Positions 15,929 to 37,574 of a DNA stretch of 49,435 bases are shown here, one piece after another. The notes beneath the pieces are model-generated. The model ran no database searches and was not told the DNA's origin. It was given only the letters and a program-made list of their open reading frames with translations. The stretch comes from Opitutaceae bacterium UBA2377 (GTDB lineage Bacteria; Verrucomicrobiota; Verrucomicrobiia; Opitutales; Opitutaceae). Position 1 is the stretch's first letter. Each line of letters opens with the position of its first letter. Position numbers and translations under genes: made by a program. Where the stretch lies: the NCBI GenBank assembly GCA_002344205.1, contig DDSZ01000033.1, positions 88,472 through 137,906 on the forward strand, in the 5' to 3' direction.

Positions 15929-16702
15929 TCACCAAGCCGTCCAGCCGCCGTCCACGACGAGGCTGTGGCCGGTGACGTAGGAGGACGCGTCCGACAGCAG
16001 GAAAAGGGCGGGGCCGGCGATCTCGTCTTTGCGGCCGATGCGGTTGAGGGCCGTTTTCTTCGCCAGTTCGCCCACGAAGCCGGGGTGGGCGGATTGCACG
16101 GCGGGATTGGGAAACGGGCCCGGCGTGAGGCAGTTGAACCGCACGCCATGCGGGCCGTAGTGCACCGCCAGGTAGCGCATGAGCTGCAGGATGGCCGCCT
16201 TGCTGGCGCCGTAGTCGATCGGGTTGGGCGTGAGCGGCGCGGCGTAAAGGCGCGGGTCGGGCGCGACGACGCCATACATGCTGGCGAAGAGCACGATGCT
16301 GCCGGCGGCGCGGACCTTCATCTGTTCCGCGAGGTGACGGCACAGGACAAACGTGGGCGTGAGCGCGCGTTCGAAGGTTTTTTGAAACTCGGTGGCCGGG
16401 AGGTTCTCCAGCCGGTATCCGCTGGAGGAGGCGAAGGCGAGGTGGGCGACGCCGTCGGGCAGGCCGTGCGCGGCGACCAGACCGTCGAGGGCGGCGGGCA
16501 GGGCCGCGGCGTCGTTGACGTCCAGCGTCACGGGCACGGTGGACTGCAATCCGTGCTCACGCACGAGGGCCTCGGCCCGGCCGGGCAGGTCGAGGCAGAG
16601 CACCTTCGCGCCCTCGGCGTCCAGCGCGCGGGTGATGGCGGAGCCGAGGTAGCCGGCCCCGCCGGTGATCCAGATCGATTTGCCTGCAAACGTCGCGCTC
16701 AC
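15929..16702 (-). CDS. SDR-family oxidoreductase (first of the pair)
   Basis: 257 residues, classical SDR length. It shows the nucleotide-binding GGAGYLGSAI (about 14-23), DLPGRAE-type acidic end of beta-2, and the active-site Tyr-x-x-x-Lys in IDYGASKAAILQL. The C-terminal VVDGGWTAW is the usual SDR ending. It is an NAD(P)-dependent dehydrogenase, substrate unknown. Its start overlaps the stop of the next SDR gene by 4 bp, so it belongs to the IclR-linked operon and is last before phoD. Confidence 0.88.
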   Translation of the reverse strand: MSATFAGKSIWITGGAGYLGSAITRALDAEGAKVLCLDLPGRAEALVREHGLQSTVPVTLDVNDAAALPAALDGLVAAHGLPDGVAHLAFASSSGYRLENLPATEFQKTFERALTPTFVLCRHLAEQMKVRAAGSIVLFASMYGVVAPDPRLYAAPLTPNPIDYGASKAAILQLMRYLAVHYGPHGVRFNCLTPGPFPNPAVQSAHPGFVGELAKKTALNRIGRKDEIAGPALFLLSDASSYVTGHSLVVDGGWTAW

Positions 16703-17487
16703 TTGGCCGTGTAGCCGCCGTCCACGGGGAGGTTGACGCCGGTGATGTAGCTGGCGGCGTCGCTGAGCAGGAAGACGACGGCCCCGCCGATCTCGCGGGC
16801 TTCCGCCATGCGGCCGAGCATGGTCATCTGGCCGTAACGCCCGAGGAAGGGCTCCGGCTGGGGCTTGTCGGGATTGTAGATGCCGCCGGGCGAGACCACG
16901 TTCACCCGCACCTTTTTCGGGCCGTAGAGCGAGGCGTAGTGGCGGGTGAGGTTGAGCATGCCGCCCTTGTGGAAGAAATAATCCGGCACGGTGCCCATCG
17001 CGGTGCCCTCGTAGAGGAAGGGATTGGCGCCGACCATGCCCTGGATGGAGGCGATGTTCACGAGGCTGCCGCCGGCGGGCTGCGCGGCCATGGCATCGGC
17101 GAAGGTGCGCAGCGTGATGAAAAGGCCGGTGGCGTTCACCTTTATGGATTCTTCCCAGGCGGCGACGGAGTCCCGTTCGTTGCGCATGGGGCGGCTGACG
17201 GCGTTGAAGACGAGCCCGTCAATCCGGCCGTGCGCGGCGAGCACGCGGTCGCGGAGGCCGGCGACAGAGCCCTCGGCGGTTATGTCCACCTGCTCGGCGT
17301 GCAGCGACCGCCCGGCCGCGCGGCCGGTTGCGATTCCTTTCTCGATGGTCGCTTGGTCGCGCGAGGCGACGACCAAGGTCGCGCCGGCGGCGCCGAGCGC
17401 GTCAACCAAGGCTCGGCCGAGCAGACCGGTGCCGCCAAATTGCACGACGACTTTGCCGGCGAGGGAAAAAGGCGACGACTCAGGCAT
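16699..17487 (-). CDS. SDR-family oxidoreductase (second of the pair)
   Basis: 262 residues. GGTGLLGRAL near residue 14 binds the cofactor; the catalytic Tyr and Lys are in PDYFFHKGGMLNL. It ends with LPVDGGYTAK. It is clearly a paralogue type of the neighbouring SDR but with a different substrate loop. The gene overlaps the aldolase gene by 8 bp and the other SDR by 4 bp, so the three are translationally packed. A hydroxy-acid or sugar-acid dehydrogenase feeding or drawing from the aldolase is plausible, but not shown. Confidence 0.88.
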   Translation of the reverse strand: MPESSPFSLAGKVVVQFGGTGLLGRALVDALGAAGATLVVASRDQATIEKGIATGRAAGRSLHAEQVDITAEGSVAGLRDRVLAAHGRIDGLVFNAVSRPMRNERDSVAAWEESIKVNATGLFITLRTFADAMAAQPAGGSLVNIASIQGMVGANPFLYEGTAMGTVPDYFFHKGGMLNLTRHYASLYGPKKVRVNVVSPGGIYNPDKPQPEPFLGRYGQMTMLGRMAEAREIGGAVVFLLSDAASYITGVNLPVDGGYTAK

Positions 17488-18301
17488 AGGGAGATTGATT
17501 CTTGGGGGCGGCTCCCGGCGGCAAGGTTTTGACCTGTCCCGCGAGCAGTTCGAGCCGTTGCTGGAACCACGTGTTCAGTCCGCCGACATCGGAGCCGAGG
17601 TTGAAGACGGTGTGTCCCTCGGCGACCAGCTGCTCGAACGGCACGTAAAGCCCCGAGGTCATCATGAACTTGCCGTGGACGCGGGCGGCGCGGCCGACCC
17701 GCTGGCGGGCGGCAGCCACGGCCTCGTGGGTGAGGTTGCCAGCCTGCCCGATGCGGTGGCTGAAATCGCCGGGACCAAAAAGAAAACCGTCGAAGCCGGG
17801 GACGGCGGCGATGGCCTCGACCTGCTCGAGCGCCTCGGGCGACTCGATCTGGAACACGATGACTTTCTCGGTGTTGCTGTTGTGGATGTAATCCTCGACC
17901 GGAACGACGCAGTAGGCGCCGTCGGTGTTGCCGCCGTCGAGCGCGCGTTTGCCCATCGGATGGAAGCGGGTCCACTCAACGATCTTGCGCGCCTCGGCCG
18001 CGCTCTCAATGTGCGGCACGATGAGGCCGGTGGCGCCGGCCTCCAGCGGACGAATGTAATCGCTGTAGCTGCCCTTGGCGACGCGCACCAGCGTGTCCAT
18101 GTCGTGCAGCCGGGCGGCGCGGATGGTGTGTTCGAGGGTCGTCCAGTCGCCCGGCACATGCTCCTGGCAGAGCCACAGGGCGTCAAAGCCCGCGATGCCC
18201 GCCATCTCGGCCACCCGCGGGTCGGTGAGGTTGAGCTTCATCGTGGCGGCGAAGCGGTTTTCGCGGAGCAGGCGGAGGACGCGGCTGGAACGGAGTTTCA
18301 T
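17480..18301 (-). CDS. HpcH/HpaI-family aldolase
   Basis: 273 residues. The family forms and breaks carbon-carbon bonds between pyruvate (or a related 2-oxo acid) and an aldehyde with a divalent metal. Visible site residues: the CQEH segment (about 49-52), the Arg in LVRVAKG, the metal ligand Glu in VFQIESPEA and Asp in LFGPGDFS. Family relatives include 2-keto-3-deoxy-L-rhamnonate aldolase and 5-keto-4-deoxyglucarate aldolase. In this operon with dehydrogenases it would cleave a 2-keto-3-deoxy acid. Overlaps of 4 and 8 bp link it to both neighbours. Confidence 0.88.
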   Translation of the reverse strand: MKLRSSRVLRLLRENRFAATMKLNLTDPRVAEMAGIAGFDALWLCQEHVPGDWTTLEHTIRAARLHDMDTLVRVAKGSYSDYIRPLEAGATGLIVPHIESAAEARKIVEWTRFHPMGKRALDGGNTDGAYCVVPVEDYIHNSNTEKVIVFQIESPEALEQVEAIAAVPGFDGFLFGPGDFSHRIGQAGNLTHEAVAAARQRVGRAARVHGKFMMTSGLYVPFEQLVAEGHTVFNLGSDVGGLNTWFQQRLELLAGQVKTLPPGAAPKNQSPYA

Positions 18302-19254
18302 GGGGAGAGGGCGGAGAGGATTTCGGCGGTTTCGACCCGACGCGAGCCCTCAGCGCGGCTGCGCAGGCCGCCGATGATGACGGCCATCAGCTCGACGGTG
18401 TCGCTGAACGGATAGGCGGAGCGGCCCGTGCGGAGAAAATCGATGAAGGCGACCAACTGGCGGCGGAAGGTGGTGTAGGTGTCGGTGCAGCGAATGGTGA
18501 CCTGGCCGGCGGTGCCGCAGAGGTGGATCGTCCCGAAGGTGGCGCCGCCGTCGGCGATGACGGGCAGGGTGACCTGCGCACCGGAGCGATGGACGAGGTG
18601 GGCGACTTCGAGGCCGGGCGCAGTTTCCAGGCGGACGGAAGTGAAGCCGGGGCCGAGCAGCCGGAAGACGGGCTCCAGCGCGTGGATACCGTAGTTTTCC
18701 CAAGCCTTCGCCGTGGTGCTGGAAGCCCAGCGCAGTTCACCGAGTCCGCCCGCGCCATTGAGATACGGGTCGAGTTCGGGTGCGTAGCGCATGCCGCTGG
18801 AGGAGAGCAACCGCGCGCCGGCCTTTTCCCAGGCGATGAACGTGCGCAGATCCCCGACACTGGTCGCGAGGGGTTTGTCCACAAAGACCGGCAGACCGGC
18901 CTCAATGAAGGGCCGGGCGCGGCGGACGTGGTCAAAGCCGTCGTCGGTCGAAATGAAAACGGCGTCCACGTGGCCGATGACGTCCTCGGGGTTCTGCACG
19001 ATGTGGGGGATTTTTGCCGTGGCGGCGACGAGCGGCGCCTCGGCGGGGTTGTCCGTCCAGACGTGGGTAACCTGCGCACCGGGGATGCCGACGGTCTCCG
19101 GCGCGTGGGCGCCCATGTATTTCGTGATGCCGGGATACGGGCACTGCGCGAGCGCCGCCGGATCGTAGCTGTTGATGATCGAAGACCAGGAAAACGGGTG
19201 GCCGTTGCCCGGGATCATCCCGAGCATGGCAAGGCGCAGCGGTCGGTCAGGCAT
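18298..19254 (-). CDS. Gfo/Idh/MocA-family oxidoreductase
   Basis: 318 residues from the ATG at 19254; the frame is open 128 codons further upstream, but that stretch is low-complexity and lies over the neighbouring gene. The N-terminus has an unusual LGMIPGNGHPFSW in place of the plain GxGxxG Rossmann loop, a pattern I associate with a Planctomycetes/Verrucomicrobia subgroup. VFVDKPLATSVGDL is the conserved EKP-type motif (here DKP). It is a probable NAD(P)-dependent sugar or cyclitol dehydrogenase. It overlaps the upstream oxidoreductase by 8 bp and the aldolase by 4 bp. Confidence 0.85.
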   Translation of the reverse strand: MPDRPLRLAMLGMIPGNGHPFSWSSIINSYDPAALAQCPYPGITKYMGAHAPETVGIPGAQVTHVWTDNPAEAPLVAATAKIPHIVQNPEDVIGHVDAVFISTDDGFDHVRRARPFIEAGLPVFVDKPLATSVGDLRTFIAWEKAGARLLSSSGMRYAPELDPYLNGAGGLGELRWASSTTAKAWENYGIHALEPVFRLLGPGFTSVRLETAPGLEVAHLVHRSGAQVTLPVIADGGATFGTIHLCGTAGQVTIRCTDTYTTFRRQLVAFIDFLRTGRSAYPFSDTVELMAVIIGGLRSRAEGSRRVETAEILSALSP

Positions 19255-20260
19255 GGAGATCGGCGCAACGCACGCGTGCGCCGCCGGTGTCGGCGGAGGC
19301 AAGGGCGGCGAGGTTGAAGCGCAGGGTTTGCGCTGCGGCGGCGAGGGAGCAGAGCCGGGCGGGCCGGCCCTCGATCTGGTCGAGGAAGGCGTTGGCCTGC
19401 GCAATGAAATGGGCGTCGCGCTCGGGCACCGGGCAGTCGTGCCAGGTCCAGTCCGCTTCGCCGAGCCGGCAGACGCCCCAGCGCTGGCGGTGCAGCTCGA
19501 TGCGCACGCTGCCGGCGACGGCGTTGAACTGGATGAAGTTTTCGTTGGGCGCCTGGAACTGGTTGAGCGTGTAGTTGACGAGGATGTCGCCGTGGCGGGC
19601 GCTGAGGTTGACGGTGTCCTCGACCGTGACGTCGGCAAGCACCTGGTGGGCGCAGTCGCAAATGAGGCTGTCGGTTGGGCCGATCACGCTTTCGACCCAG
19701 TTGGCGACATGGGTGAGCGCGTCCTGGATGGCGCCGCCGCCGGTCCTCCGGTCGCGGTAATACGTCTGCGCGTAGGGCACGGCATGCGCGGGGCGGCAGG
19801 TGGGAAAATGCTGGCCGCTGCCCAACACGACGTGTTTGACCGCACCGAGTTCGCCGCGGCCCAGGAAATCACGGGCCTGCACCAGGACGGGAAAGACCTG
19901 GTAAACGTAGGCGACCGCGGCCTGCCGGCCCGAGGCGGCGTGGGCCTGCAGGAGGGTGTCCACGTTCGCCAGCGACTGCGACAGCGGCTTCTCGATGAGC
20001 ACGTGTTTCCCGGCGGCCAGCGCCTGAAGCGCGAACGGCACGTGCAGGTGGGCGGGGGTGCAGATGACCACGGCCTCGCCGGGCCCGCGCAGCGCCGCGG
20101 CGTAGTCGGCATGGACGGTCACGTTGTAGCGGGCGGCAATCGTCTCCCGCAGGGCAGGCGCGCTTTCACAGGCGGTTACCTGCGCCCGCCCGGTTTTCTG
20201 AAAACACCGCAAATGGCGCTCCCCAATACTGCCGCAGCCGACGATAATAACTTGATGCAT
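19247..20260 (-). CDS. Gfo/Idh/MocA-family oxidoreductase
   Basis: 337 residues. The N-terminal Rossmann fold reads VIIVGCGSIGERHLRCFQ (about 4-21) and the family signature is VLIEKPLSQSL around residue 92. The C-terminal alpha/beta substrate domain follows. It is an NAD(P)-dependent dehydrogenase or reductase on a sugar-like substrate, specificity not readable. It lies 5 bp after the DSD1-type gene and overlaps the next oxidoreductase by 8 bp. Two unlike members of one family side by side suggest sequential oxidations of one substrate. Confidence 0.88.
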   Translation of the reverse strand: MHQVIIVGCGSIGERHLRCFQKTGRAQVTACESAPALRETIAARYNVTVHADYAAALRGPGEAVVICTPAHLHVPFALQALAAGKHVLIEKPLSQSLANVDTLLQAHAASGRQAAVAYVYQVFPVLVQARDFLGRGELGAVKHVVLGSGQHFPTCRPAHAVPYAQTYYRDRRTGGGAIQDALTHVANWVESVIGPTDSLICDCAHQVLADVTVEDTVNLSARHGDILVNYTLNQFQAPNENFIQFNAVAGSVRIELHRQRWGVCRLGEADWTWHDCPVPERDAHFIAQANAFLDQIEGRPARLCSLAAAAQTLRFNLAALASADTGGARVRCADLHA

Positions 20261-20265
20261 GGAAT

Positions 20266-21354
20266 TCAGCGGGTTTTGCCCCGGGCCACGACGCGCCAGG
20301 TGGCGATGATGCGGTCGCCGTTGCTGACGGTGACCTCATCGGTGAGATTGATGACGGGGCAGATGTGGGCGGGGATGAAGGCGACGCGTTCGCCGAGCTG
20401 GAGGGAGTCGGCGGCAGAGCCGCGGACGTAGCCGTGCTCCTCGTTGACACGCACGACGGCGAGGTCGCGTCCGTCGGCGGCCCGGGCGTGGATGTTGTCG
20501 GCGGTGCGGTCGGAGGCAAAAGTCTTCGAACCGGCGTCGATCAGCGCGAGGCCGGACTCGGGTTTGTCCACGACCGTGGCGAGCACCTGGACGGCGACAT
20601 CCTCGGGGCGCATCACGCCGGTGACCTCCGTCAGGTAAAGATCGCCGAACATGTAGGCGCCGGGCCGCACGGCCTGCACGCGGCCGGCGGATTGTTCCGC
20701 GATGAGACGTGCACTCACGCTGCACCCGGGCCAAACGGGCAGGGCGGGGTCGATGACGTCGCGCAGGGCGCAGATCCGGTCTATAAGGGCGCGCGCCATG
20801 GGAACCTGCTGCTCGCGGGGTATGCCGTAGAAGTGGCCTTCGTGGGTGTAAAAGCCGCGGAGCTCGAGATGCGCGCTCCGGGCGAGCCGAGCGGCAACAC
20901 GCTGGGCGGTGGCGAGGTCGCGCACGCCTTCGCGGCCCAGGCCGGTGTCCACGGCCAGCATGACGGCCAGTTTGAGGCCGGCCGCCGCCGCGACTTTTTC
21001 GAGGGCGGCGGCATGCAGTTCGCTCGTGACGGCGACGCGCAGGTCGGGAATCTGCTCCGCGAGGGCGGCGAGCCGCGGGGCTTGGGCGGGATCCACCAGC
21101 GAATGCGCGACAAACAGGCTGCGCACCCCGGAGGGCAGCATGGCTTCCGCTTCGCCGAGTTTGGCGCAGGTAAGTCCCGCGGCGCCGGCGGCGAGCTGCC
21201 GGCGGGCGACCTCGACCAGCTTGTGCGTCTTGATGTGAGGCCGCAGCTCGACGCCGTGCGCGGTGCAAACTTCCTGCATGGCGCCGATGTTGGCTTCAAG
21301 TTTGCCGCGATCGATCAGGATGGCGGGAGTCGGCAGGCTGGCGAAGGCCGTCAT
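20266..21354 (-). CDS. DSD1 / D-threonine-aldolase-like PLP enzyme
   Basis: 362 residues, fold type III PLP enzyme (alanine-racemase-like barrel then beta domain). The motif RPHIKTHK at residues 38-45 contains the PLP lysine. A late HICPVINL supplies the His/Cys metal ligands typical of metal-dependent D-serine dehydratases and D-threonine aldolases. The family acts on D-beta-hydroxy-amino acids, giving glycine plus an aldehyde or pyruvate plus ammonia. It is 5 bp from both neighbours in the eight-gene operon. Together with the aminotransferase and the M81 peptidase across the divergent promoter it indicates an amino-containing substrate. Confidence 0.88.
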   Translation of the reverse strand: MTAFASLPTPAILIDRGKLEANIGAMQEVCTAHGVELRPHIKTHKLVEVARRQLAAGAAGLTCAKLGEAEAMLPSGVRSLFVAHSLVDPAQAPRLAALAEQIPDLRVAVTSELHAAALEKVAAAAGLKLAVMLAVDTGLGREGVRDLATAQRVAARLARSAHLELRGFYTHEGHFYGIPREQQVPMARALIDRICALRDVIDPALPVWPGCSVSARLIAEQSAGRVQAVRPGAYMFGDLYLTEVTGVMRPEDVAVQVLATVVDKPESGLALIDAGSKTFASDRTADNIHARAADGRDLAVVRVNEEHGYVRGSAADSLQLGERVAFIPAHICPVINLTDEVTVSNGDRIIATWRVVARGKTR

Positions 21355-21359
21355 GCTTC

Positions 21360-22109
21360 TTACATCCGCCCGATCTGGCTCACGGTCAATCCGCCATCCA
21401 CGACCACGACCTGGCCGACGATGTAGGCCGAGGCCGGGGAGAGCAGGAACACCGCGGTGCCCGCACAGTCCTCGGGTTCCCCGAGCCGTTTCAGCAGGAT
21501 TTTCTTCTCGTAGTGCTTCGCCTTGTCCCCGGAGCCCAGGGCCGCGGTCAAAGGTGTGCGGATGAGGCCGGGGGCGAGGCCGTTTACGCGGATGCCATGC
21601 CCGATGAGGGCCTGCGCGAGGCTGCGGGTCATCATGACGAGGGCGCCTTTGGAGCTGTCGTAGGCGGTGGAGTCCTCCTCGGATTGAAATCCGTTGGTCG
21701 AGGAAACGATCACGATGGCTCCGGGGCGATTCCGGGCGATGAGTTCCTTGGCGAAAGCTTGGCAGAGAAAATAGGTGGCCCGCACGTTGAGATTCATCGT
21801 TTTGTCCCAGGTCGCGGCGTCCATTTCCAGGAACGGTCGGTCGAAGAAGCTGCCCGCGTTGGCGACGAGCAGGTCGAGCCGGGGTTGGACGGCGAAGGCC
21901 GCGGCCACAAGTTTGGCGGGTGCATCGGGCGCGAGCAGGTCGCCATCAACGAAGGTGCAGCCCGGCGGGATGGCGGCGGGCCTTGCGGTGTTGCCGTGAT
22001 AGACGACGGCGGCCCCGGCTTCGTGCAGACCGTCGGCGATGGCCTGCCCGATGCCCTTGGAGGAGCCGGTGACGAGCGCGGCGCTATTCGCGAGCGAGAA
22101 TTTTTTCAT
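21360..22109 (-). CDS. SDR-family oxidoreductase (3-oxoacyl reductase-like)
   Basis: 249 residues. TGSSKGIGQAIA (about 15-26), NAG (about 85-87), SSTNG and the catalytic AYDSSKGALVM are all present, and the C-terminus VVVDGGLTVSQIGRM is typical. It is a classical NAD(P)-dependent SDR; substrate unknown. The ATG lies inside the end of the upstream amidohydrolase (26-bp overlap), consistent with coupling in the IclR-linked operon. Confidence 0.9.
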   Translation of the reverse strand: MKKFSLANSAALVTGSSKGIGQAIADGLHEAGAAVVYHGNTARPAAIPPGCTFVDGDLLAPDAPAKLVAAAFAVQPRLDLLVANAGSFFDRPFLEMDAATWDKTMNLNVRATYFLCQAFAKELIARNRPGAIVIVSSTNGFQSEEDSTAYDSSKGALVMMTRSLAQALIGHGIRVNGLAPGLIRTPLTAALGSGDKAKHYEKKILLKRLGEPEDCAGTAVFLLSPASAYIVGQVVVVDGGLTVSQIGRM

Positions 22110-23046
22110 CTTTCAATCGCAGCAGGGCTAGCAGGTTGTCCTGGCCGACCGCGGCACGCAACGTCGTCGGCAGCGCCTGCACGCAGGCGATCTCCTCCGC
22201 ATAGGTGCTGCGCAGCGCGAGGTCCTTGTCCACGTAGCTCTGGAACGGCGTGTCCGAGCCCCAGATGAGCTTTTGGGGGTAGGCCTCGGCCATGGCCTGC
22301 AACACGGCCGCGGGGTCGCGGTAGTCGGCGGGAAAGCGGCGGTCCTCCGGGGCGACGAAGCCCAGGCCGCGCACGACCCCCTCGCAGTGGATCCGGTGCG
22401 CGGAGCAGTCGAACCAGGTGTTCGGCAATTCCGCGACCCGGTCGAGGCAGGCGTGGTCGAAGCGGCACGAGTGGGCGAGGCAGAAGCGCACGTGCGGCGC
22501 GGCCTCGGCCACCGCGAGGATGTCCCGCGCCTGCGACCAGACATCGGCCGGCGCGACGCTGGAGTGGATGATGAAGGGCAGGTCGAACTCCGCGGCGAAA
22601 TCCAGAAAGCCGCGGCCGGCGCCGAGCAGCGCCTTCACGTCGGACTGGATGATGGTCGCCTGGATCTTCAGGCCGTAAAAAGGGAACCGGGCGTGCAGGT
22701 CGCGGAGCTGGGCGAGTTGGGCCACCGGTTCGCGCAGCGGATCAAGGATGGCGAAGGGCAGGGTGTGCCGGCCGAGATCGGGATACAGCTCGTAGATCTC
22801 CCGCAGCATGCGCTCGTTCTCGAACACGTAGGGGACATTTTCCAAACCGCCGGGCTGGATCCGGCCGGACCGCATCGCGGCGACATCGAAGGCGAGGTTG
22901 GAGACGAAGGGGAAGACCACCCAGCGGTCCACGCCGTGGTGCCGGCCCTCGGTCACCAGCGCCGGCAGGTCCTGCGCGTAGGGGTGGTAGCCGTTGAGGT
23001 AGAAGAACAGGTCGACGCCGAGGTGGTTGTGACAGTCGATGAGCAC
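22084..23046 (-). CDS. Amidohydrolase (COG2159-type metal-dependent hydrolase)
   Basis: 320 residues, a TIM-barrel amidohydrolase. The metal-binding H-x-H is in MLIDCHNHLGVD at the N-terminus; FCLAHSCRFDH and the late WGSDTPFQSY give further ligands (His, Asp). Relatives decarboxylate or hydrolyse ring and lactone compounds; a lactonase or decarboxylase step would fit the oxidoreductases downstream. It is the first gene of the leftward eight-gene operon, 63 bp from the divergent IclR gene with a palindrome between them. Confidence 0.85.
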   Translation of the reverse strand: MLIDCHNHLGVDLFFYLNGYHPYAQDLPALVTEGRHHGVDRWVVFPFVSNLAFDVAAMRSGRIQPGGLENVPYVFENERMLREIYELYPDLGRHTLPFAILDPLREPVAQLAQLRDLHARFPFYGLKIQATIIQSDVKALLGAGRGFLDFAAEFDLPFIIHSSVAPADVWSQARDILAVAEAAPHVRFCLAHSCRFDHACLDRVAELPNTWFDCSAHRIHCEGVVRGLGFVAPEDRRFPADYRDPAAVLQAMAEAYPQKLIWGSDTPFQSYVDKDLALRSTYAEEIACVQALPTTLRAAVGQDNLLALLRLKDEKILARE

Positions 23047-23074
23047 GGGGATATTTTGTTTGACGAAATGGATG

Positions 23075-23089
23075 TTTCACATTGTGGAA
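23075..23089. promoter_or_regulatory. Candidate IclR operator in the divergent promoter
   Basis: TTTCACATTGTGGAA is a 15-bp palindrome with one mismatched pair (arms TT-CACA and TGTG-AA). It lies in the middle of the only 63 bp separating the amidohydrolase and IclR start codons and stands out as AT-rich in a GC-rich region. Position and symmetry suit an autoregulated IclR site controlling both directions. Confidence 0.6.
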
Positions 23090-23109
23090 TGATTGGAAAG
23101 CAAAAAACG

Positions 23110-23829
23110 ATGAGCATCGCCGTCCTCGACAAAGCCTTCTCGATCCTCGAGGTGCTGGCCCGCACCGGGCGGCATCTCACGCTCGCGGAGCTGGCGGAGG
23201 AAAGCCGGCTGCCCAAGCCGACGGTGCACCGCATTCTCCGCAGCCTGCGGGATCTCGGCTACGTGGCCCAGTCGGACGAGCGCGGCGCCTACCGGCTCGC
23301 CGAGCGGCTCGGTTCGCTGCGCACGCACGGGCGGGACGAGTCGCTGCGGCTCAAGGCGCGTCCCGTCATGGAGCGGCTGCAGGCCCGCTTCGACGAAACG
23401 GTGAACCTCGGCGTCCTCGAGGGACTGTTCGTGCGCTATGTGGATGTGCTGGAGACCAGCCAGCCGCTGCGCTGGATCGTGAAACCGGGCGCGCGGGACC
23501 CCTTCCACACCACGGCGCTCGGCCGGGCCATTGTCGCGGGGCTGCCGGACGAGCAGCAGCGCCGGCTGGTGCACAAGGCGGCGGCCCGCGGCCCGCGGCG
23601 CACAAAGCTGGTGCAGGAACTGGCCGACACGCGCCAACGCGGCTACGCCCTCGAGGAGGAGGAGACGGTGACGGGCGTGGCCTGCGTGGCGGTCCCGCTC
23701 GACTGGCTGGGCGAACCGCTGGCCGCGATCAGCGTGGCCGTGCCCGTGCACCGTTACCCGCCGCGCCAGCGCGCCGCCCTCGTCGCCGCCCTGCTTGATG
23801 TGCGGGAGCAGGCTCCCGCCAGCGCCTGA
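23110..23829 (+). CDS. IclR-family transcriptional regulator
   Basis: 239 residues. An N-terminal winged helix (about 3-65, LTLAELAEESRLPKPTVHRILRSLRDLGYV) is followed by the IclR effector domain (about 80-235, with NLGVLEGLFVRYVDVLET and DPFHTTALGRAIVAGL). The ATG at 23110 is the family's normal start; the open frame upstream overlaps the divergent gene. It should sense a small organic acid or sugar intermediate and regulate both the leftward operon and the aminotransferase-M81 pair that follows 7 bp and 11 bp apart. Confidence 0.93.
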   Translation: MSIAVLDKAFSILEVLARTGRHLTLAELAEESRLPKPTVHRILRSLRDLGYVAQSDERGAYRLAERLGSLRTHGRDESLRLKARPVMERLQARFDETVNLGVLEGLFVRYVDVLETSQPLRWIVKPGARDPFHTTALGRAIVAGLPDEQQRRLVHKAAARGPRRTKLVQELADTRQRGYALEEEETVTGVACVAVPLDWLGEPLAAISVAVPVHRYPPRQRAALVAALLDVREQAPASA

Positions 23830-23836
23830 TTTTCCC

Positions 23837-25180
23837 ATGCCCTACACCTTCACAAAATCCCAGGCCCTGTTCGAGCGCGCCCAGCGCAGCATCGCGGGCG
23901 GCGTCAACAGCGGCATCCGCAAGCTGGAGACGCCGGTGCCCCTCTACTTCACGCATGGCCGCGGCGCGCGCCTGTGGGACGTGGACGGCAACGAATACAT
24001 CGATTTCAAGCTCGGCCAGGGCGCGCTGCTTTACGGCCATGCCCCCGCCGGCATGGCGGAGGCCATCGCGGCGCAGGCGGCGCGCGGCACCCACTGGGCG
24101 GGCCAATGCGAACTGGAGCTGGAGGTGGCGGAGCGTATCCAGCAGATGATCCCCTCGGCGGAGCTGGTGCGCTTCAACAACTCGGCGACCGAGGTCGTGA
24201 CCGCCGCCTTCCGGCTGGCGCGGGCGCACACCGGGCGGCCGCTCATCCTGCGCTTCGAGGGCCATTACCACGGCTGGGCCGACGAGGGGCTGGTGGGTTT
24301 CGCCAACCCGGCGGACAAATGGGGCGACGACGAGCATCCAGCCCAATTGCACCCGAGCCAGGGCGTCATCCCGGAGGTGCTCGGCAAATTCGTGGTCGCG
24401 CGGTGGAACGACATCGCGCACCTGCGCCGGCGCGTGGACGAGCACCGCGGGCAGATTGCCGCGATCGTCTTCGAGCCCGCGCTGTGCAACACCTGCTGCA
24501 TCGAGCCGGTGGCGGGACTCATGGCGGCCATCCGCGAGCTGTGCGACCGCGACGGCATGCTGATGATTTCCGACGAGACCATCACCGGTTTCCGCTTCGG
24601 CGCCGGTTGTGCGCAGGGCTACTACGGCTACCGGCCCGACCTCACTATCTTGGGCAAAGCCGTGGGCGGCGGGCTGCCCTTTGCCGCGCTGGCGGGCACC
24701 AAGGCGGCGATGGCGAAGATCCTTTCGGGCGAGGTTGTCCATGCCGGCACGTTGAACGGCAATCCGCTCTGTCTCGCGGCGAGCCAATGGTGCCTCGACC
24801 AGGTGCTGGCGCTGGGCGGCACGCACCCGCAGGGTATCCAGGCGTTGGGCAAAAAACTTATGGCCGGTCTGGCCGCCCTCGCGGCCCAACACGGCGTCCC
24901 GCTGCACCCGCAGGGGCCCGGGTTGATTTTCCATACCGTGATGCTCAAACCGGGTGCCGCTCCCGGACCGGTAAACGATTACCGCGACTACGTGCGGCGG
25001 CATGATGCGCCGCGCTGGGCGCACCTGCGCCGCTGCCTGCTGGAGGAAGGCGTGAGCGCCATCGAGCGCGGTTTGTGGTCCATCAGCCTGGTGCACACGG
25101 AAAAGGACATTGATGAGGCGCTGCAACGGGCGGCGGCCGCCTTCGCCCGGCATGCGGCCACCTGGAAGCCGACGGCCTAG
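23837..25180 (+). CDS. Class III PLP aminotransferase (glutamate-1-semialdehyde aminomutase-like)
   Basis: 447 residues from the ATG at 23837. The body resembles glutamate-1-semialdehyde 2,1-aminomutase: RSIAGGVNSGIR, LWDVDGNEYIDF, FNNSATEVVTAAFRLAR, HYHGW, the Asp of MISDETITGFRFG and PLP lysine Lys274 in ILGKAVGGGLPFAAL. It is a catabolic rather than haem-pathway member by context, because no other tetrapyrrole genes are near and the IclR gene is 7 bp upstream. It would transfer or shift an amino group on an amino acid or amino sugar derivative. Confidence 0.9.
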   Translation: MPYTFTKSQALFERAQRSIAGGVNSGIRKLETPVPLYFTHGRGARLWDVDGNEYIDFKLGQGALLYGHAPAGMAEAIAAQAARGTHWAGQCELELEVAERIQQMIPSAELVRFNNSATEVVTAAFRLARAHTGRPLILRFEGHYHGWADEGLVGFANPADKWGDDEHPAQLHPSQGVIPEVLGKFVVARWNDIAHLRRRVDEHRGQIAAIVFEPALCNTCCIEPVAGLMAAIRELCDRDGMLMISDETITGFRFGAGCAQGYYGYRPDLTILGKAVGGGLPFAALAGTKAAMAKILSGEVVHAGTLNGNPLCLAASQWCLDQVLALGGTHPQGIQALGKKLMAGLAALAAQHGVPLHPQGPGLIFHTVMLKPGAAPGPVNDYRDYVRRHDAPRWAHLRRCLLEEGVSAIERGLWSISLVHTEKDIDEALQRAAAAFARHAATWKPTA

Positions 25181-25191
25181 TCACTCCCATC

Positions 25192-26700
25192 ATGTCGCGC
25201 CGCATCCTTCTCGCCGGATTGTTTCATGAGACGCATACCTTCCTCGAGGGCCGGACGACGCTGGCGGACTTTGCCGTAACCCGGGGGGCGGGTATCCTGG
25301 CCAAGGCCGGCGATGGTTCGCCCACCGCGGGTTTTCTGGAAGTGGCGGAAGCGGCGGGCTGGGAGGTGGTGCCCACGATTGATCTCCGCGGCACGCCGAG
25401 CGCGATGGTGGCAGACGCGGTGCTGGATCATTTTTGGACGGAGTTCGCGGCCGCGGCGGAGCGCGAGGCCGCCCGCGGTCTGGATGCGGTTTTCTTGATC
25501 CTGCACGGCGCGATGGCGACGGAGTCCCACCCGGATGTGGAAGGCGAGGTGCTGGCCCGGCTGCGGCAACTGCCGGGTTTGGCGACCCTGCCGGTCTTTG
25601 CCGTGCTCGACCTGCACGCCAACGTGACCGCGCGCATGGCGGCGCACGCCAACGCGCTCATTGCCTACCGCGAAAACCCGCACACCGATGCGCAGGCCAC
25701 GGCGGTGCGCGCGGCCCGGCTGCTGCAGCGCTGCCTCGACACCGGCACCGTGCCGCACACCCACTGGCGGCGCGCGCCGATCATCTGGGCGCCGCCGGGC
25801 ACCGGCACGGCGCAGGACCCGATGCGCGGGCTGAACGCAATGGCGCGGGCGCTGGAGGCCGAGGATGCGTGGATCTGGGAAATGAACGTTACGCCGGGCT
25901 TCTCCTTTGCCGACACACCCGAGACCGGATTGTCGTTCAGCCTGGTTTCGCCCGCGCCGGCGGAACAAGTGCAGCCGCATCTGGAGCGGTTTTGCCGCGA
26001 GGCTTGGCGCTGGCGCGAGGCCGGTGTGGTCACCTATCCCGGCGTGGAAGTGGTGCTGCAAAAGATCCTGCCCGTGCAGGCGGGACCGGTGCTGCTGGTC
26101 GAACCGGCCGACAACATCGGCGGCGGCGCGCCGGGCGACGGCACGGGCGTGCTGCGCGGGGTGCTCAAGTTCGATGTGTCTGACTCCGCCGTGATCATCA
26201 ACGATCCGGCTGCGGTAAGCGCGGCGACGCAAGCCGGCCTCGGGGCGCAGTTGACGCTGGCCATCGGCGGGCGGGGCTCGCCCCTCGACCCGGGTCCGGT
26301 CGAGCTGACCGTGGTGGTGGTCTCCACGAGCGACGGCAAATTCGAGCTGGAGGACATTCACAGCCATCTGGCCTCGATGCGCGGCCGGCACATCGACATG
26401 GGGCCGTGCGCGGTGGTGCGGCACCGTGGAATCACGATTTTGCTAACGAGTCGGAAGACGCCGCCCTTCGACCTCGGCCAGTGGCGGAGCCAGGGCATCG
26501 ACCCGGAGAAGCTGAAGGTAATCGGCGTGAAGGCGGCGGTGGCCCACCGGCAGGCCTACGACCCGATCATGACCGCTTCGTATTTCGTGGACACGCCCGG
26601 ACCGTGCTCGAGCAACGTGGAGGTTTTCACCTTCCGCCATCTGCGGCGACCGGTGTGGCCGCTGGATGCGACATTCGAGTGCGCAGCCGGACGCGTTTAG
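25192..26700 (+). CDS. M81-family metallopeptidase (MlrC-like)
   Basis: 502 residues. The family includes MlrC, which cleaves linearised microcystin. Conserved parts are at the N-terminus LLAGLFHETHTFLEG, LHGAMATESHPD, the zinc-binding VLDLHANVTARM and AYRENPHTDAQ, and the C-terminal DNIGGGAPGDGTGVLR. It is full length and has no signal peptide, so it acts in the cytoplasm. It is 11 bp behind the aminotransferase. Most M81 proteins have no known substrate; here it should hydrolyse an amide in the compound that this IclR regulon consumes. Confidence 0.9.
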   Translation: MSRRILLAGLFHETHTFLEGRTTLADFAVTRGAGILAKAGDGSPTAGFLEVAEAAGWEVVPTIDLRGTPSAMVADAVLDHFWTEFAAAAEREAARGLDAVFLILHGAMATESHPDVEGEVLARLRQLPGLATLPVFAVLDLHANVTARMAAHANALIAYRENPHTDAQATAVRAARLLQRCLDTGTVPHTHWRRAPIIWAPPGTGTAQDPMRGLNAMARALEAEDAWIWEMNVTPGFSFADTPETGLSFSLVSPAPAEQVQPHLERFCREAWRWREAGVVTYPGVEVVLQKILPVQAGPVLLVEPADNIGGGAPGDGTGVLRGVLKFDVSDSAVIINDPAAVSAATQAGLGAQLTLAIGGRGSPLDPGPVELTVVVVSTSDGKFELEDIHSHLASMRGRHIDMGPCAVVRHRGITILLTSRKTPPFDLGQWRSQGIDPEKLKVIGVKAAVAHRQAYDPIMTASYFVDTPGPCSSNVEVFTFRHLRRPVWPLDATFECAAGRV

Positions 26701-26873: not shown

Positions 26874-27926
26874 CTACAGTGTCACCGGCCTGCTGTGCTC
26901 GGCGGATTCATAGAGCGCGCAGACGAGCGCCACGGCCTTGCGGGCTTCGGCTCCGTCAATCGCCAGCGGACTGCCGTCGCGCAGGTGGGCGACGAGGTTT
27001 TGAATCTGGCGCAGGTGGCCTTCGTGGCTGATGGCATTGGGCGCGCTGGCGCCGGAGCCGAGGGCGTTGGTCGAACCTGTGAGGACTGCATCGTCACCGG
27101 TTTGCTTTTCCCGAAATTCCCAGCGGGTGATCCGGTCGTCCTCCAGCACGAGGGAACCGTGCTCACCGCAAAGCTCGATGCGGCGCGACCATCCCGGCCA
27201 GAGGGCGGTGCTGGCCTCAATCGTGCCGAGGGTGCCATCCGCATAGCGCAGCGCGGCCACGGCGGTGTCCTCGGCCTCGATGCCGGTGTGCACGCGCCGG
27301 GTGGTCCACGCAAAAATCTCGGCCGGCATCCCGGCGAACCACTGCAACAGGTCGAGGCCGTGGATGGCCTGGTTCATCACGGCGCCGCCGCCGTCGAGCG
27401 TAAGCGAACCCTTCCAAGGCTGGGCGGCGTAGTAGTCCGCGGTGCGGTGCCATTTCACATAGGCGCTGGCGAGCACCCGCCGGCCGAGCCGGCCGGACGT
27501 GATCGCGGCTTTTACCCGCTGTGCGCCCGCGCCGAAACGTGATTGGAAAATCGGCGCGACGACCACACCGGCCTGGGCTGCGGCCTGCAGCAGCGCATCG
27601 GTGCGCCCGACCGTGATTTCGAGCGGTTTTTCCACCACGACGTGCTTGCCGGCGCGGATCGCGGCCAGCGCGGGTTCGAGGTGAGCGCCGCTTGGTGTGG
27701 TGATGCAGACCACCTGAACATCGGGTCGCTGCACCAGGGCCTCAAGGTCGGTGGTGGCAACCGGAGCGCCATGCTCCTGGGCGAGCGCCCGGGCTTTTTC
27801 CTCGCGGCGACCCCAGAAGCCGACGAGCCGGGCCCCGGGTATCTCGCGGATGGCCCGGGCATGAAAACCGGCGATCATCCCGGTGCCGAGGATGGCGAAG
27901 CCAAACGGCGGAGCGGAGGCGTTCAT
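26874..27926 (-). CDS. Gfo/Idh/MocA-family oxidoreductase
   Basis: 350 residues. GFAILGTGMIAGFHARAI (about 8-25) is the Rossmann loop, VVVEKPLEI (about 96-104) the EKP signature, and DGGGAVMNQAIHGLDLLQWFAG carries the conserved C-terminal His of the substrate domain. It is a standard NAD(P)-dependent sugar dehydrogenase candidate. The ATG at 27926 was chosen over an upstream Met because that extension lies in the divergent promoter. It is divergent from another family member with a 76-bp gap. Confidence 0.9.
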   Translation of the reverse strand: MNASAPPFGFAILGTGMIAGFHARAIREIPGARLVGFWGRREEKARALAQEHGAPVATTDLEALVQRPDVQVVCITTPSGAHLEPALAAIRAGKHVVVEKPLEITVGRTDALLQAAAQAGVVVAPIFQSRFGAGAQRVKAAITSGRLGRRVLASAYVKWHRTADYYAAQPWKGSLTLDGGGAVMNQAIHGLDLLQWFAGMPAEIFAWTTRRVHTGIEAEDTAVAALRYADGTLGTIEASTALWPGWSRRIELCGEHGSLVLEDDRITRWEFREKQTGDDAVLTGSTNALGSGASAPNAISHEGHLRQIQNLVAHLRDGSPLAIDGAEARKAVALVCALYESAEHSRPVTL

Positions 27927-28002
27927 ATAGTCAGTTTGAGGGACCAGTTCCGGGCCGGGCAAAGCAATTGACGGGCCGGCCGGAGAGCGGCGTGATGGCC
28001 GC

Positions 28003-29088
28003 ATGGCCCAAAAATCCGACGGCATGAACTACGCCCCGCAGGGCAAGCCCCGGCCGGTGGTGCAGCCCGGCGAGTTCGTCTATGCGGCGGCGCATCTCGA
28101 CCACGGGCACATTTACGGCATGAGCAACGGGCTCAACGAGGCCGGGGCGACGCCAAAGTGGGTTTACGATCCGGATCCAGCCAAGGTGGAGGCGTTTCGC
28201 AAAGTGTATCCGCAAGTTAAGGTGGCGCGCAGCCTCGACGAGATTCTCGACGATGCCGCGGTGAAGCTGGTGGCCGCGGCGGCGGTGCCGTGCGACCGCG
28301 GACCCTTGGGCTGCCGCGTGATGCAGGCGGGGAAGGATTATTTCACCGACAAGACACCGTTCACAGCGCTCGACCAGCTCGCCGAGGCGCGCCGCGTGGC
28401 CGCTGCGACCGGCCGCAAGTATGCGGTGTATTACAGCGAGCGGCTGCACTCCGAGGCCGGCATGCACGCCGGTGACCTCGTGCACGGCGGTGCGATCGGC
28501 CGGGTCGTGCAGGTGCTCGGGCTTGGGCCGCACCGGCTGGCCAAGGCCTCCCGGCCGGCGTGGTTTTTTGAGAAGGCGAAATATGGCGGCATCCTGTGCG
28601 ACATCGGCAGCCATCAGTGCGAGCAGTTCCTTTTCTACAGCGGTGCGACCGACGCCACCGTCACGCATGCGGCCGTGGGCAACTACGCAAACCCCGACAC
28701 GCCGGAGCTGGAGGATTTCGGCGAGGCCACGCTCACCGGTGACAACGGCGCGGCGAATTACTTCCGCGTGGACTGGTTCACGCCGAATGGGCTCAGCACA
28801 TGGGGCGACGGCCGCACAATGATTCTGGGCACGAAGGGCTACATCGAGCTGCGCAAATACCTCGACGTCGGCCACAGCGCGACGGGCGACAACCTCATCC
28901 TCGTGGATGACAAGGGCGAGCAACGCTTCAGCGTGGCGGGACAGGTGGGCTTCCGCTTTTTCGGCGAACTCATCCTCGATTGCCTTAACCGCACGGAAAA
29001 GGCGATGACGCAGGCGCACACCTTCAAGGCCGCCGAGCTCTGCCTCAAGGCCCAGGCCGCGGCGAAGACACTGACGGCAGGGAAGTGA
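28003..29088 (+). CDS. Gfo/Idh/MocA-family oxidoreductase (divergent N-terminus)
   Basis: 361 residues; a second Met at residue 8 is an alternative start. The N-terminal nucleotide-binding part is degenerate (VYAAAHLDHGHIYGMSNGLNEAGA) and the EKP motif reads FTDKTPFTA, while the C-terminal domain (GGILCDIGSHQCEQFLFYSGA) keeps the pattern of the family. It may use its cofactor differently or have a changed reaction. It is separated from the divergent oxidoreductase by only 76 bp and followed by a repeat element. Confidence 0.8.
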   Translation: MAQKSDGMNYAPQGKPRPVVQPGEFVYAAAHLDHGHIYGMSNGLNEAGATPKWVYDPDPAKVEAFRKVYPQVKVARSLDEILDDAAVKLVAAAAVPCDRGPLGCRVMQAGKDYFTDKTPFTALDQLAEARRVAAATGRKYAVYYSERLHSEAGMHAGDLVHGGAIGRVVQVLGLGPHRLAKASRPAWFFEKAKYGGILCDIGSHQCEQFLFYSGATDATVTHAAVGNYANPDTPELEDFGEATLTGDNGAANYFRVDWFTPNGLSTWGDGRTMILGTKGYIELRKYLDVGHSATGDNLILVDDKGEQRFSVAGQVGFRFFGELILDCLNRTEKAMTQAHTFKAAELCLKAQAAAKTLTAGK

Positions 29089-29240: not shown

Positions 29241-30071
29241 TCAACTTGCGATGGGCCACATGACCGGAAACTGCGGGCCGCGGAACTTTTCGCCCGCGGC
29301 GGGGTGATCGGGCTGCTTTTGCATCACGAACTCGTTCATGTGCTCCTGCATCGGCCGGTAGGTGCACTCGGTGGACATGACGTGCGAGACGAAGGCGCGG
29401 CGGCGGAACGCGGAGAAGTTGCGGTCGCTGCCGTGCAGTGTCAGGCCGTGATGAAAGGAGACGCTGCCCTTGGGGATGATGACCGGCACCTCGCGGCCGT
29501 TGAAGTCGGCGGGCACCGCGGGCTTCTGGACATCGTCACCGGTGATGCCGGTGGGGAGTTTCCAGATGCCGAGCTTATGCGAGCCTTCGAGGAAAACCAT
29601 CGGGCCGGAGTCGGGCCGCACGTCGTCGAGGGCGATCCAGCAGGTGACGGTCCGGCACTCGGCGATCATCTGCCAGTAGGCCCAGTCCTGGTGCCAGGTG
29701 ATGACACGACCGCCGTGCGCGGGTTTGTCGAGCAACTGGTCGTGCCACATCCGGATGCCGGGGGCCCCGATGAGCTGGGCGGCGATATGGCCGAGGCGCG
29801 GGCTCAGGGCGGCGTCGGCCAGCGTGGCGTCGGCTTTCCAGGCGTTGTCGATTTTGATGACCGCGAGCGGGTCGCCATCTCGGCCGGTGAAGCCGTCGGG
29901 CGGCGCACCTTTTTCAAAATCCCTGGCGATGACACGGTCGGCGGCGGCGTTGAGCTGCGCCACTTCCGCGGTGGAGAAAACACCGGGCTGAATGTGGTAG
30001 CCACGTTCATTGAACGCGGCGATGGCCGCGGCGGGGAGAGTGGTGCGGGCGGGGTCGGCGGGGAAGCGCAT
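29241..30071 (-). CDS. Phytanoyl-CoA dioxygenase (PhyH) family protein
   Basis: 276 residues from the ATG at 30071; an open extension of 72 codons upstream would overlap the divergent peroxiredoxin and is not used. Fe(II)/2-oxoglutarate dioxygenase ligands are visible: His127 and Asp129 in TWHQDWAYW and His213 in GLTLHGSDRN, with the 2-oxoglutarate-binding Arg cluster RRR following. Bacterial PhyH proteins hydroxylate varied small molecules; the substrate is unknown. It converges with the oxidoreductase gene and diverges from the peroxiredoxin gene. Confidence 0.88.
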   Translation of the reverse strand: MRFPADPARTTLPAAAIAAFNERGYHIQPGVFSTAEVAQLNAAADRVIARDFEKGAPPDGFTGRDGDPLAVIKIDNAWKADATLADAALSPRLGHIAAQLIGAPGIRMWHDQLLDKPAHGGRVITWHQDWAYWQMIAECRTVTCWIALDDVRPDSGPMVFLEGSHKLGIWKLPTGITGDDVQKPAVPADFNGREVPVIIPKGSVSFHHGLTLHGSDRNFSAFRRRAFVSHVMSTECTYRPMQEHMNEFVMQKQPDHPAAGEKFRGPQFPVMWPIAS

Positions 30072-30177
30072 GGAATGGGGTAACGGCACCCTAGAACGGG
30101 CCAGATTGGCCGCCAGCCGGAAATGGTCCGGTCCGGCCGCTTGCGAAATCGCCGCCCCGTGATACTGGTGAACCTGC

Positions 30178-30687
30178 ATGAAACTTCGTTTCCTCACCGC
30201 CTCGGCCGTTTTTCTCACCATGTCGCTCTTCTCCTCCGCCCAACCGCTCGCCGTCGGGGCCGCCGCTCCGCTCGTCACCGCCCCCACCGAAACCGGCGCG
30301 CCGCTGGCGCTCGGCGAGGTTTACGCCGCCAACACCTACACGCTGGTCTATTTCTACCCCAAGGCCGACACACCGGGCTGCACGGCGCAGGGCTGTTCGC
30401 TACGCGATGCCTATGCGGAGTTGCTGGAAAAAGGCGTGGCGGTTATCGGCGTGAGCACCGACAAGCCGGAAGCGCAGGCGAAGTTTAAGGCGAAATACAA
30501 CCTGCCCTTCACGTTGCTCGCCGATCACGACAAAAAAGTGGTCGAGGCCTTTGGCGTGCCGACCACGATGGGCTTTGCGAAGCGTCAGGCTTATCTGATC
30601 AAGGACGGGAAAATCATCTGGGCGGATCACAGTGCCTCCACCGGCCAGCAGGCCGCCGATGTGCTGAAAGTCCTCGCGGCAGAGTAA
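30178..30687 (+). CDS. Exported peroxiredoxin (BCP/PrxQ type)
   Basis: 169 residues with an N-terminal signal sequence (about 1-21). The peroxidatic Cys68 and resolving Cys73 sit in FYPKADTPGCTAQGCSLRDAY, the five-residue spacing of BCP/PrxQ enzymes, followed by VIGVSTDKPEAQAKFKAKYNLPFTLLAD. It reduces hydrogen peroxide and organic peroxides. The signal peptide is notable, since BCP is usually cytoplasmic; periplasmic location is inferred. Confidence 0.92.
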   Translation: MKLRFLTASAVFLTMSLFSSAQPLAVGAAAPLVTAPTETGAPLALGEVYAANTYTLVYFYPKADTPGCTAQGCSLRDAYAELLEKGVAVIGVSTDKPEAQAKFKAKYNLPFTLLADHDKKVVEAFGVPTTMGFAKRQAYLIKDGKIIWADHSASTGQQAADVLKVLAAE

Positions 30688-33945: not shown

Positions 33946-33953
33946 ACTCTCCC

Positions 33954-34784: not shown

Positions 34785-34789
34785 TCCCG

Positions 34790-35923: not shown

Positions 35924-35954
35924 CCGGTCCGCACCCCGCCATCGACCTCACCCC

Positions 35955-36530: not shown

Positions 36531-36535
36531 ATCCC

Positions 36536-37549: not shown

Positions 37550-37574
37550 GGTCCGCTCGGAGAGCGGACCCTAC
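37550..37574 (-). repeat. Single GTAG-REP unit between convergent genes
   Basis: Read leftward from 37574: GTAG, arm GGTCCGCTC, loop TCC, arm GAGCGGACC, a perfect 9-bp stem identical in sequence to the left unit at 26751. It fills most of the 30-bp gap between the PfkB and PIG-L genes, and its TAG is the stop codon of the PIG-L gene. It is well placed to end transcription from both sides. Confidence 0.85.

Follow-up and report, generated by a model that had tools for sequence, protein, structure and literature searches.

In the ong pathway of oxidative chitin breakdown in Pseudoalteromonas, as described in PMC9537276, OngB deacetylates N-acetylglucosaminate (GlcNAc1A) and OngC, a fold III pyridoxal phosphate (PLP) enzyme, deaminates glucosaminate (GlcN1A) to 2-keto-3-deoxygluconate (KDG). 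The same paper describes a need for the RidA (OngD) and KdgK genes, import by a sodium symporter and repression by MurR/RpiR (PMC9537276). We analysed a stretch of 49,435 nucleotides, called the window, from contig C51 of an Opitutaceae (Verrucomicrobiota) genome of 3.46 Mb. Positions 15929 to 26700 of the window hold eleven genes, encoding an IclR-family regulator, a class-III aminotransferase (AT3), an M81 metallopeptidase (M81), an Amidohydro_2 protein (AmdH), three short-chain dehydrogenases (SDR1 to SDR3), a DSD1-like PLP enzyme (DTA), two Gfo/Idh/MocA dehydrogenases (GfoA and GfoB) and an HpcH/HpaI-family aldolase (HpaI). This eleven-gene set is real and conserved, and it looks like an undescribed variant of the breakdown of oxidised amino sugars, for example a piece of chitin, to pyruvate.

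The set operates much as the ong pathway does, without belonging to it. Both have an amide hydrolase, a fold III PLP enzyme and a regulator of their own, and both, if our proposal holds, would convert a 2-amino-sugar acid to a 2-keto-3-deoxy acid; RidA is not encoded among the eleven genes and is found in relatives only (37 of 80 loci). In contrast to ong, the window has M81 and an Amidohydro_2 protein rather than a D-aminoacylase, IclR rather than MurR/RpiR and an HpaI-family aldolase rather than a KDG kinase, and it adds SDR, Gfo/Idh/MocA and class-III aminotransferase genes. Unlike ong, the eleven genes include no GH20 gene; they also include no OngB-type D-aminoacylase (the hydrolases there belong only to PF04909 and PF07364), no KDG kinase and no MurR/RpiR repressor. 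An earlier note on this DNA knew of no characterised pathway with this set, and our literature searches, which covered open-licence papers, likewise found none.

L-fucose-type oxidative pathways comprise an SDR, a COG3618 lactonase and either FAH or an aldolase. They resemble the window in having an SDR beside an Amidohydro_2 protein, and the best matches of the AmdH structure model are COG3618 structures; a sequence profile of AmdH found no match among PDB sequences. They differ in that the window has PLP enzymes and M81, and its eleven genes do not include a dehydratase of the enolase type. A haloarchaeal paper proposes a different glucosaminate route with an IclR protein, which is not used as support. 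Further literature drawn on here is PMC12017989, PMC12343721, PMC12474180 and PMC4401734.

Gene layout and proposed pathway

The earlier note had described eleven tightly packed genes of named families, and this description proved accurate. All eleven reading frames are open, a domain-profile search of the window proteins found in each the domain named earlier, and alignments showed that the catalytic residues of the set are kept in relatives. Eight genes run leftward and three rightward (Table 1), and leftward neighbours either overlap (by 26, 8, 4, 8 and 4 bp) or are separated by 5 bp (two gaps). The divergent gap between IclR and AmdH measures 63 bp (23047-23109) if IclR starts at ATG 23110, the start used here; further in-frame ATGs lie at 23068 and 23089.

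We tentatively propose that the locus breaks down an N-acylated amino sugar, or the acid formed by its oxidation at C1, of the N-acetylhexosamine or N-acetylhexosaminate type, by an oxidative route that is non-phosphorylative and IclR-controlled. This is a serious possibility, and the likeliest of the readings considered, in which we infer the substrate, the reactions and the role of AT3. SDR1 would oxidise C1 to give a lactone, AmdH would open the lactone, M81 would remove the N-acyl group, and DTA would convert the 2-amino-2-deoxyaldonate to a 2-keto-3-deoxyaldonate with loss of water and ammonia. GfoA, GfoB, SDR2 and SDR3 may adjust hydroxyl groups, and HpaI, whose catalytic residues are observed, could split what results into a hydroxy-aldehyde and pyruvate. 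AT3 may act on an amino group that the simplest substrate leaves unexplained. A complete Verrucomicrobiota route of this kind, in which the M81 'peptidase' is an N-deacylase, the HpaI-family aldolase replaces both KDG kinase and 2-keto-3-deoxy-6-phosphogluconate aldolase, and IclR has a single operator in the genome, is somewhat unlikely. Should M81 deacylate amino-sugar acids in partnership with a deaminase of the D-threonine aldolase (D-TA) type, a large number of 'peptidase' and 'D-threonine aldolase' annotations would have to be read differently, and Verrucomicrobiota would gain a route for oxidised chitin or other amino-sugar acids. The proposal yields specific, easily assayed enzyme predictions, and the short predicted operator suits a regulator assay.

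The DSD1-like enzyme has a dehydratase-type metal pair

DTA contains PF01168, PF14031 and the PHxKxxK lysines, which place it in the DSD1/D-TA superfamily. According to a structure paper, a His/Cys metal pair goes with D-serine dehydratase and a His/Asp pair with D-threonine aldolase. Where the printed alignment of a solved enzyme extends to the metal site, the aldolases 4v15 and 6qkb have H-x-D, whereas the dehydratase 3wqc has H-x-C. The pair of DTA is H330-x-C332, and it is present in 39/39 sequences in an alignment of relatives. The residue pattern suggests that DTA would eliminate water and ammonia from a 2-amino-2-deoxyaldonate.

A glycine-forming aldolase activity was considered for the DSD1-like gene and set aside because its metal pair is His-x-Cys, not His-x-Asp. 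A related reading is a pathway built on a D-hydroxy amino acid aldolase like BhcC (3-hydroxy-D-aspartate aldolase) with glycine as product, since BhcC (NF045642) and BhcR are the nearest NCBIfam models of DTA and of IclR, and BhcC belongs to the same superfamily as DTA. However, DTA lies far outside BhcC, at 143.7 bits against a cut-off of 690, and IclR, an IclR-family regulator by PF09339 and PF01614, reaches 145 bits of the 350 set for BhcR; all 39 DTA sequences lack the His-x-Asp pair of BhcC, and the BhcB and BhcD families are not among the eleven genes. This makes a BhcC-like pathway most improbable.

M81 and parallel loci in Alphaproteobacteria

M81 carries both PF07364 and PF07171 and the D/H/H zinc residues of its family. 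D140, H142 and H164 occur in 37/37 sequences and are spaced as are D184, H186 and H208, given in the literature as zinc residues of the microcystin-degrading M81 protein MlrC; the alignment covered these three of MlrC's zinc-site residues. M81 and MlrC thus have family and zinc-residue spacing in common, but their gene company differs, and M81 scores 83.7 bits against the MlrC microcystinase model NF041767, far below its cut-off of 999. No characterised M81 member besides MlrC surfaced in the literature searches.

We also examined seven alphaproteobacterial D-TA loci, taken from the matches listed (20 of 529 and 30 of 532 records) and chosen in part because they were annotated. All seven D-TA enzymes have H-x-C. 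In four of the loci, from Nitratireductor, Phyllobacterium, R. leguminosarum and Phaeobacter (L138, L139, L153 and L155), the D-TA gene is accompanied by M81, RidA and MurR/RpiR genes. Shared features are thus M81, a His-x-Cys D-TA, an SDR (in three of the four) and an adjoining transporter. In two loci the transporter is a carbohydrate ABC system encoded within the set; a third has an MFS transporter, with a carbohydrate ABC transporter about 2 kb farther on, and Phaeobacter has a TRAP transporter. M81 occupies in these four loci the place that OngB has in ong. The M81 + D-TA loci are annotated, and the literature searches found no description of them. In L138 and L139, the two compared with the window, M81 is about 27% and D-TA about 35% identical, and neither locus has a match to AmdH, AT3, GfoB or HpaI. 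The Phaeobacter stretch (L155:2489-10665), with M81, D-TA, a KDG-kinase-like gene, RidA, TRAP and MurR/RpiR, is ong-like and has no D-aminoacylase annotated within it; the best match of its PfkB kinase is KDG/2-keto-3-deoxygalactonate kinase, at 170 of 400 bits.

Carbohydrate transporters in three of these four loci, a KDG-kinase-like gene in one and MurR/RpiR in all four sit poorly with the idea that the window serves catabolism of a peptide-like compound or amide conjugate, in which M81 would cut an amide, AT3 transaminate and DTA deaminate a D-hydroxy amino acid. The window itself holds sugar-type dehydrogenases and an aldolase, and SMP-30 (gluconolactonase family) genes neighbour 13/80 AmdH loci. 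We regard a peptide-like substrate as improbable, even with oligopeptide-type ABC transporters at the M81 loci of Microvirga, Rhizobium CB3060 and S. fredii and with the microcystin-degrading activity of MlrC in its favour. It would also agree with the remaining three of the seven D-TA loci, which have RidA and no M81 in the stretch, two of them (S. meliloti and Chelatococcus) with amino-acid ABC transporters and IclR.

The amino-sugar-acid proposal is partly backed because the metal pair of DTA is of the dehydratase type and because the alphaproteobacterial loci are ong-like with M81 for the deacetylase. The earlier note had suggested that the set degrades a sugar acid bearing an amino or amide group and that a retro-aldol reaction takes part; the metal pair and the four of seven D-TA loci with M81, RidA and MurR/RpiR strengthen this suggestion, which fails for the genes as a single unit, and its alternative substrate, a D-amino-acid conjugate, is weakened. 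Two observations weigh against the proposal. The scattering of the genes in relatives, which the note had named as its refuter, does occur between two parts of the locus (modules 1 and 2, below) and much less within each. In addition, family-5 and family-3 solute-binding transporters at the Microvirga M81 locus favour a peptide- or amino-acid-like substrate. Of all plasmid proteins matched, the M81 of this locus is closest to that of the window, and RidA (70%), AT3 (38%), IclR and a DSD1-like gene lie nearby.

M81 proteins are widespread, with matches to that of the window in 493 of 72,556 plasmid records. No D-TA was annotated in the stretches fetched around the M81 genes of Caballeronia, Agrobacterium and S. 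meliloti pSymA, and neither M81 nor D-TA was annotated alongside AT3 in the Streptomyces and Phaeobacter porticola loci. On plasmids, AmdH had no match, while IclR and HpaI had only matches below 60% identity; the listed HpaI matches, where annotated, were GarL, HpaI, aldolase/citrate lyase and the like.

AT3 and HpaI

The best NCBIfam match of AT3 is glutamate-1-semialdehyde aminomutase (GSAM), at 336 bits and below the cut-off of 398; against the GSAM (HemL) model TIGR00713 it scores 310.8 bits, with a cut-off of 527. HpaI belongs to the HpcH/HpaI aldolases by PF03328 and by its metal, Arg and His residues, at positions that we take to be those of the HpaI enzyme: H48, R73, E153 and D179 are invariant in 21/21 sequences. 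A 794-aa fusion of Amidohydro_2 and Aminotran_3 domains is encoded at L087:7605-9986 (the domains were tested on this protein). Members of its cluster occur in 13/80 loci and lie upstream of AmdH-SDR1 in seven Verrucomicrobiaceae-type loci, which ties the Amidohydro_2 and aminotransferase activities together.

A conserved palindrome between IclR and AmdH

The stretch between IclR and AmdH contains a palindrome with the consensus TTTCACAATGTGAAA. At least 11/14 positions were matched in 31/35 IclR-AmdH gaps, the window included, compared with 4/700 shuffles; the pattern was counted in the very 35 gaps that had supplied it, and the shuffles preserve nothing beyond base composition. Four gaps, those of L104, L107, L111 and L113, lack it. 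Across 1.32 Mb of the 80 AmdH loci, 24 sites reach 13/14, and 22 of them lie between IclR and AmdH. The other two are in the AT3-AmdH gap of L069, where IclR is elsewhere, and in the AT3-IclR gap of L053. The window's own genome (95% complete) has a single site with at most one mismatch, at 23075-23089; the chance expectation in the window is 0.01. Its conservation in this gap and its single occurrence in the genome suggest that IclR is most likely a dedicated local regulator, with the palindrome as its predicted operator.

The locus is built from two modules

The best 80 of 87 confirmed loci from a scan of named genomes with AmdH were compared. Many lie on short contigs, so the counts are lower bounds and absences are weak. 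Most AmdH relatives bear the label Opitutaceae or that of another Verrucomicrobiota group, and Horticoccus sp. 23ND18S-11 has an AmdH of 75% identity; a Verrucomicrobiota group is named in 77/80 locus titles, the other three being Bosea, Pirellula and 'bacterium'. Near AmdH we found SDR1 in 67 loci, AT3 in 41, M81 in 40, DTA in 39 and IclR and RidA in 37 each; GfoB was found in 27, GfoA in 24, SDR2 in 23, HpaI in 22 and SDR3 in 13. At least two of DTA, AT3, M81 and IclR are present in 46/80 loci and at least two of GfoA, GfoB, HpaI and SDR2 in 28/80, with both sets in 14 and neither in 20. Other neighbours, which like the RidA and SMP-30 genes count towards the amino-sugar-acid proposal, are SSF symporters (cluster c16) in 12 loci and NanM-like kelch proteins in 10. 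The locus is two conserved modules: module 1 (M81, AT3 and IclR facing AmdH, SDR1 and DTA) and module 2 (GfoA-GfoB-HpaI-SDR2-SDR3), which forms an operon of its own in many relatives.

A draw of 120 genomes from the family was surveyed at E 1e-50 (AmdH, HpaI, DTA) or 1e-100 (AT3); genome G004 scored AmdH-negative because a contig end cuts its AmdH gene. AmdH was detected in 26 genomes, AT3 in 22, DTA in 22 and HpaI in 33. AmdH co-occurs with DTA in 21 (Fisher p 1e-17) and with AT3 in 20 (2e-15), related genomes not being independent. AmdH, AT3 and DTA are all absent from 12 of the 33 HpaI-positive genomes, and HpaI is absent from four of the 19 with AmdH, AT3 and DTA (G008, G069, G099 and G112), of which G112 nevertheless has GfoA, GfoB and SDR2 nearby (L132). 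When 20 extra stretches were opened, 12 had at least two module 2 genes and none of AmdH, AT3, DTA, M81 and IclR. A fixed eleven-gene unit, as the earlier note had assumed, is therefore rejected, since modules 1 and 2 separate in relatives. GntR genes lie by six of these 12 stretches (L118, L122, L125, L126, L127 and L137), TonB receptors flank module 2 in L118, L119, L125 and L127, and L118 has a GMC-type oxidoreductase. L125 has, between GfoA and GfoB (5575-6810), a gene for a protein of 412 aa whose similarity to DUF455 is weak and stays under the cut-off; open reading frames judged by eye to resemble it occur in L119, L127 and L137.

Two ways of joining the modules are seen, depending on the locus. 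Within the window's genus, module 2 comes after DTA and shares its strand; it does so directly in the window, in G004 (~100 bp) and in G001 (~490 bp), whereas 3.4 kb intervene in G002, and in G003 the arrangement can be followed as far as the contig end. L052 and L056 differ in that module 2 comes after the other arm, IclR-AT3-M81-RidA, with the same orientation and about 95 bp past RidA. In other loci it is convergent or set off by transporter or regulator genes, and in Verrucomicrobiaceae-type loci it lies a few genes from AmdH-SDR1. The entire eleven-gene layout is seen only in the window and, within the limits set by two contig ends, in its genus-mate G003, which has a further set of HpaI, SDR2, RidA, SDR1 and DTA on one contig (L133). 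For G001 the 120-genome survey gave no AT3 match, and its locus showed no M81, IclR or SDR1. Contig C19 of the window's own genome bears another copy of module 2 (L118, G000:C19:1-12000), with PhyH, another SDR and GntR. Identity to the window is 88% for SDR2, 92% for GfoB and 91% for GfoA, but only 68% for HpaI, which suggests that the aldolase was replaced or that gene conversion was uneven.

These arrangements bear on whether two pathways have been joined, with module 1 acting on an amino or amide compound and module 2, placed downstream, serving a sugar acid or an acid of the nonulosonic type on its own and having no more than the transcript in common with module 1. This would account for module 2 occurring alone, for the HpaI genomes without module 1 enzymes and for the second copy beside GntR; moreover, where module 2 stands apart as an operon in the 80 loci, it has no palindrome site of at least 13/14. 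Nevertheless, HpaI and AmdH are correlated in the family (both in 19 genomes, AmdH only in 7, HpaI only in 14, neither in 80; Fisher p 3e-8, related genomes not being independent), and module 2 is attached to either arm of the divergon or lies near AmdH-SDR1. The proposed product of DTA is also the type of acid cleaved by HpaI-family enzymes. On balance, we consider two joined pathways unlikely, though they and a peptide-like substrate are the main rivals of the proposal.

Plasmid relatives of GfoB touch on the same question. There were seven weak matches, of which four were opened. Three, in Natrononativus, Natronococcus and Spirosoma, are 25-32% identical and lie near GH20, NagA or D-aminoacylase genes, which speaks for the amino-sugar-acid proposal. 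The fourth lies by neuB and neuC in a nonulosonic-acid cluster of Halorussus, where an oxidoreductase is 43% identical to SDR2 and the GfoB homologue 30%, in keeping with two joined pathways. An acylneuraminate cytidylyltransferase gene in the Halorussus cluster also recalls a biosynthetic route to a nonulosonic acid or another 3-deoxy acid, with HpaI running in the aldol direction. Such a role is very unlikely for the window, where no cytidylyltransferase is among the eleven genes and whose relatives carry IclR or GntR regulators and MFS or sodium symporters.

Features of the locus and neighbouring genes

Table 1. Coordinates of the genes, the proposed operator and two linked genes in the window
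Feature	Position	Strand	Evidence
SDR3, short-chain dehydrogenase, module 2	15929..16702	-	PF13561 6.7e-43; 13/80 loci
SDR2, short-chain dehydrogenase, module 2	16699..17487	-	PF13561 2.5e-40; Ser/Tyr/Lys invariant 23/23
HpaI, HpcH/HpaI-family aldolase, module 2, proposed retro-aldolase	17480..18301	-	PF03328 3.8e-28
GfoB, Gfo/Idh/MocA dehydrogenase with GNGHP motif, module 2	18298..19254	-	PF01408; ATG at 19254; 27/80 loci
GfoA, Gfo/Idh/MocA dehydrogenase, module 2	19247..20260	-	PF01408 2.4e-20; 24/80 loci
DTA, DSD1/D-TA-like fold III PLP enzyme, module 1, proposed 2-amino-2-deoxyaldonate deaminase	20266..21354	-	PF01168 + PF14031
SDR1, glucose-1-dehydrogenase-like SDR, module 1, proposed C1 oxidation	21360..22109	-	NF005559 189 bits (cut-off 215); 67/80 loci
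AmdH, Amidohydro_2, module 1, proposed lactonase	22084..23046	-	PF04909
Proposed IclR operator, 15-bp palindrome TTTCACAnTGTGRAA	23075..23089	.	conserved in IclR-AmdH gaps
IclR-family regulator	23110..23829	+	PF01614 7e-31, PF09339 5.7e-18
AT3, GSAM-like class-III aminotransferase, module 1	23837..25180	+	PF00202 6.1e-49; Lys274 39/39
M81 metallopeptidase, module 1, proposed N-deacylase	25192..26700	+	PF07364 1.5e-77, PF07171
GfoC, Gfo/Idh/MocA dehydrogenase linked to locus	26874..27926	-	PF22725 + PF01408; beside AmdH loci 8/80
GfoD, Gfo/Idh/MocA dehydrogenase, divergent partner of GfoC	28003..29088	+	PF22725; beside AmdH loci 7/80

The divergent pair GfoC/GfoD (26874-29088) adjoins M81, outside 15929..26700, and is also found by the module 2 copy in L124. 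A PhyH dioxygenase gene (29241-30287) lies near the locus, and PhyH matches are likewise found by some module 2 copies (e.g. L118, L036 and L050). Positions 33190-37540 form a separate sugar operon with a DeoR regulator, a Gfo/Idh/MocA protein, a member of the D-lyxose isomerase family and a PfkB kinase (36527-37540), which reaches 30 of 400 bits as KDG kinase. This operon is followed by a PIG-L deacetylase gene at 37571-38419.

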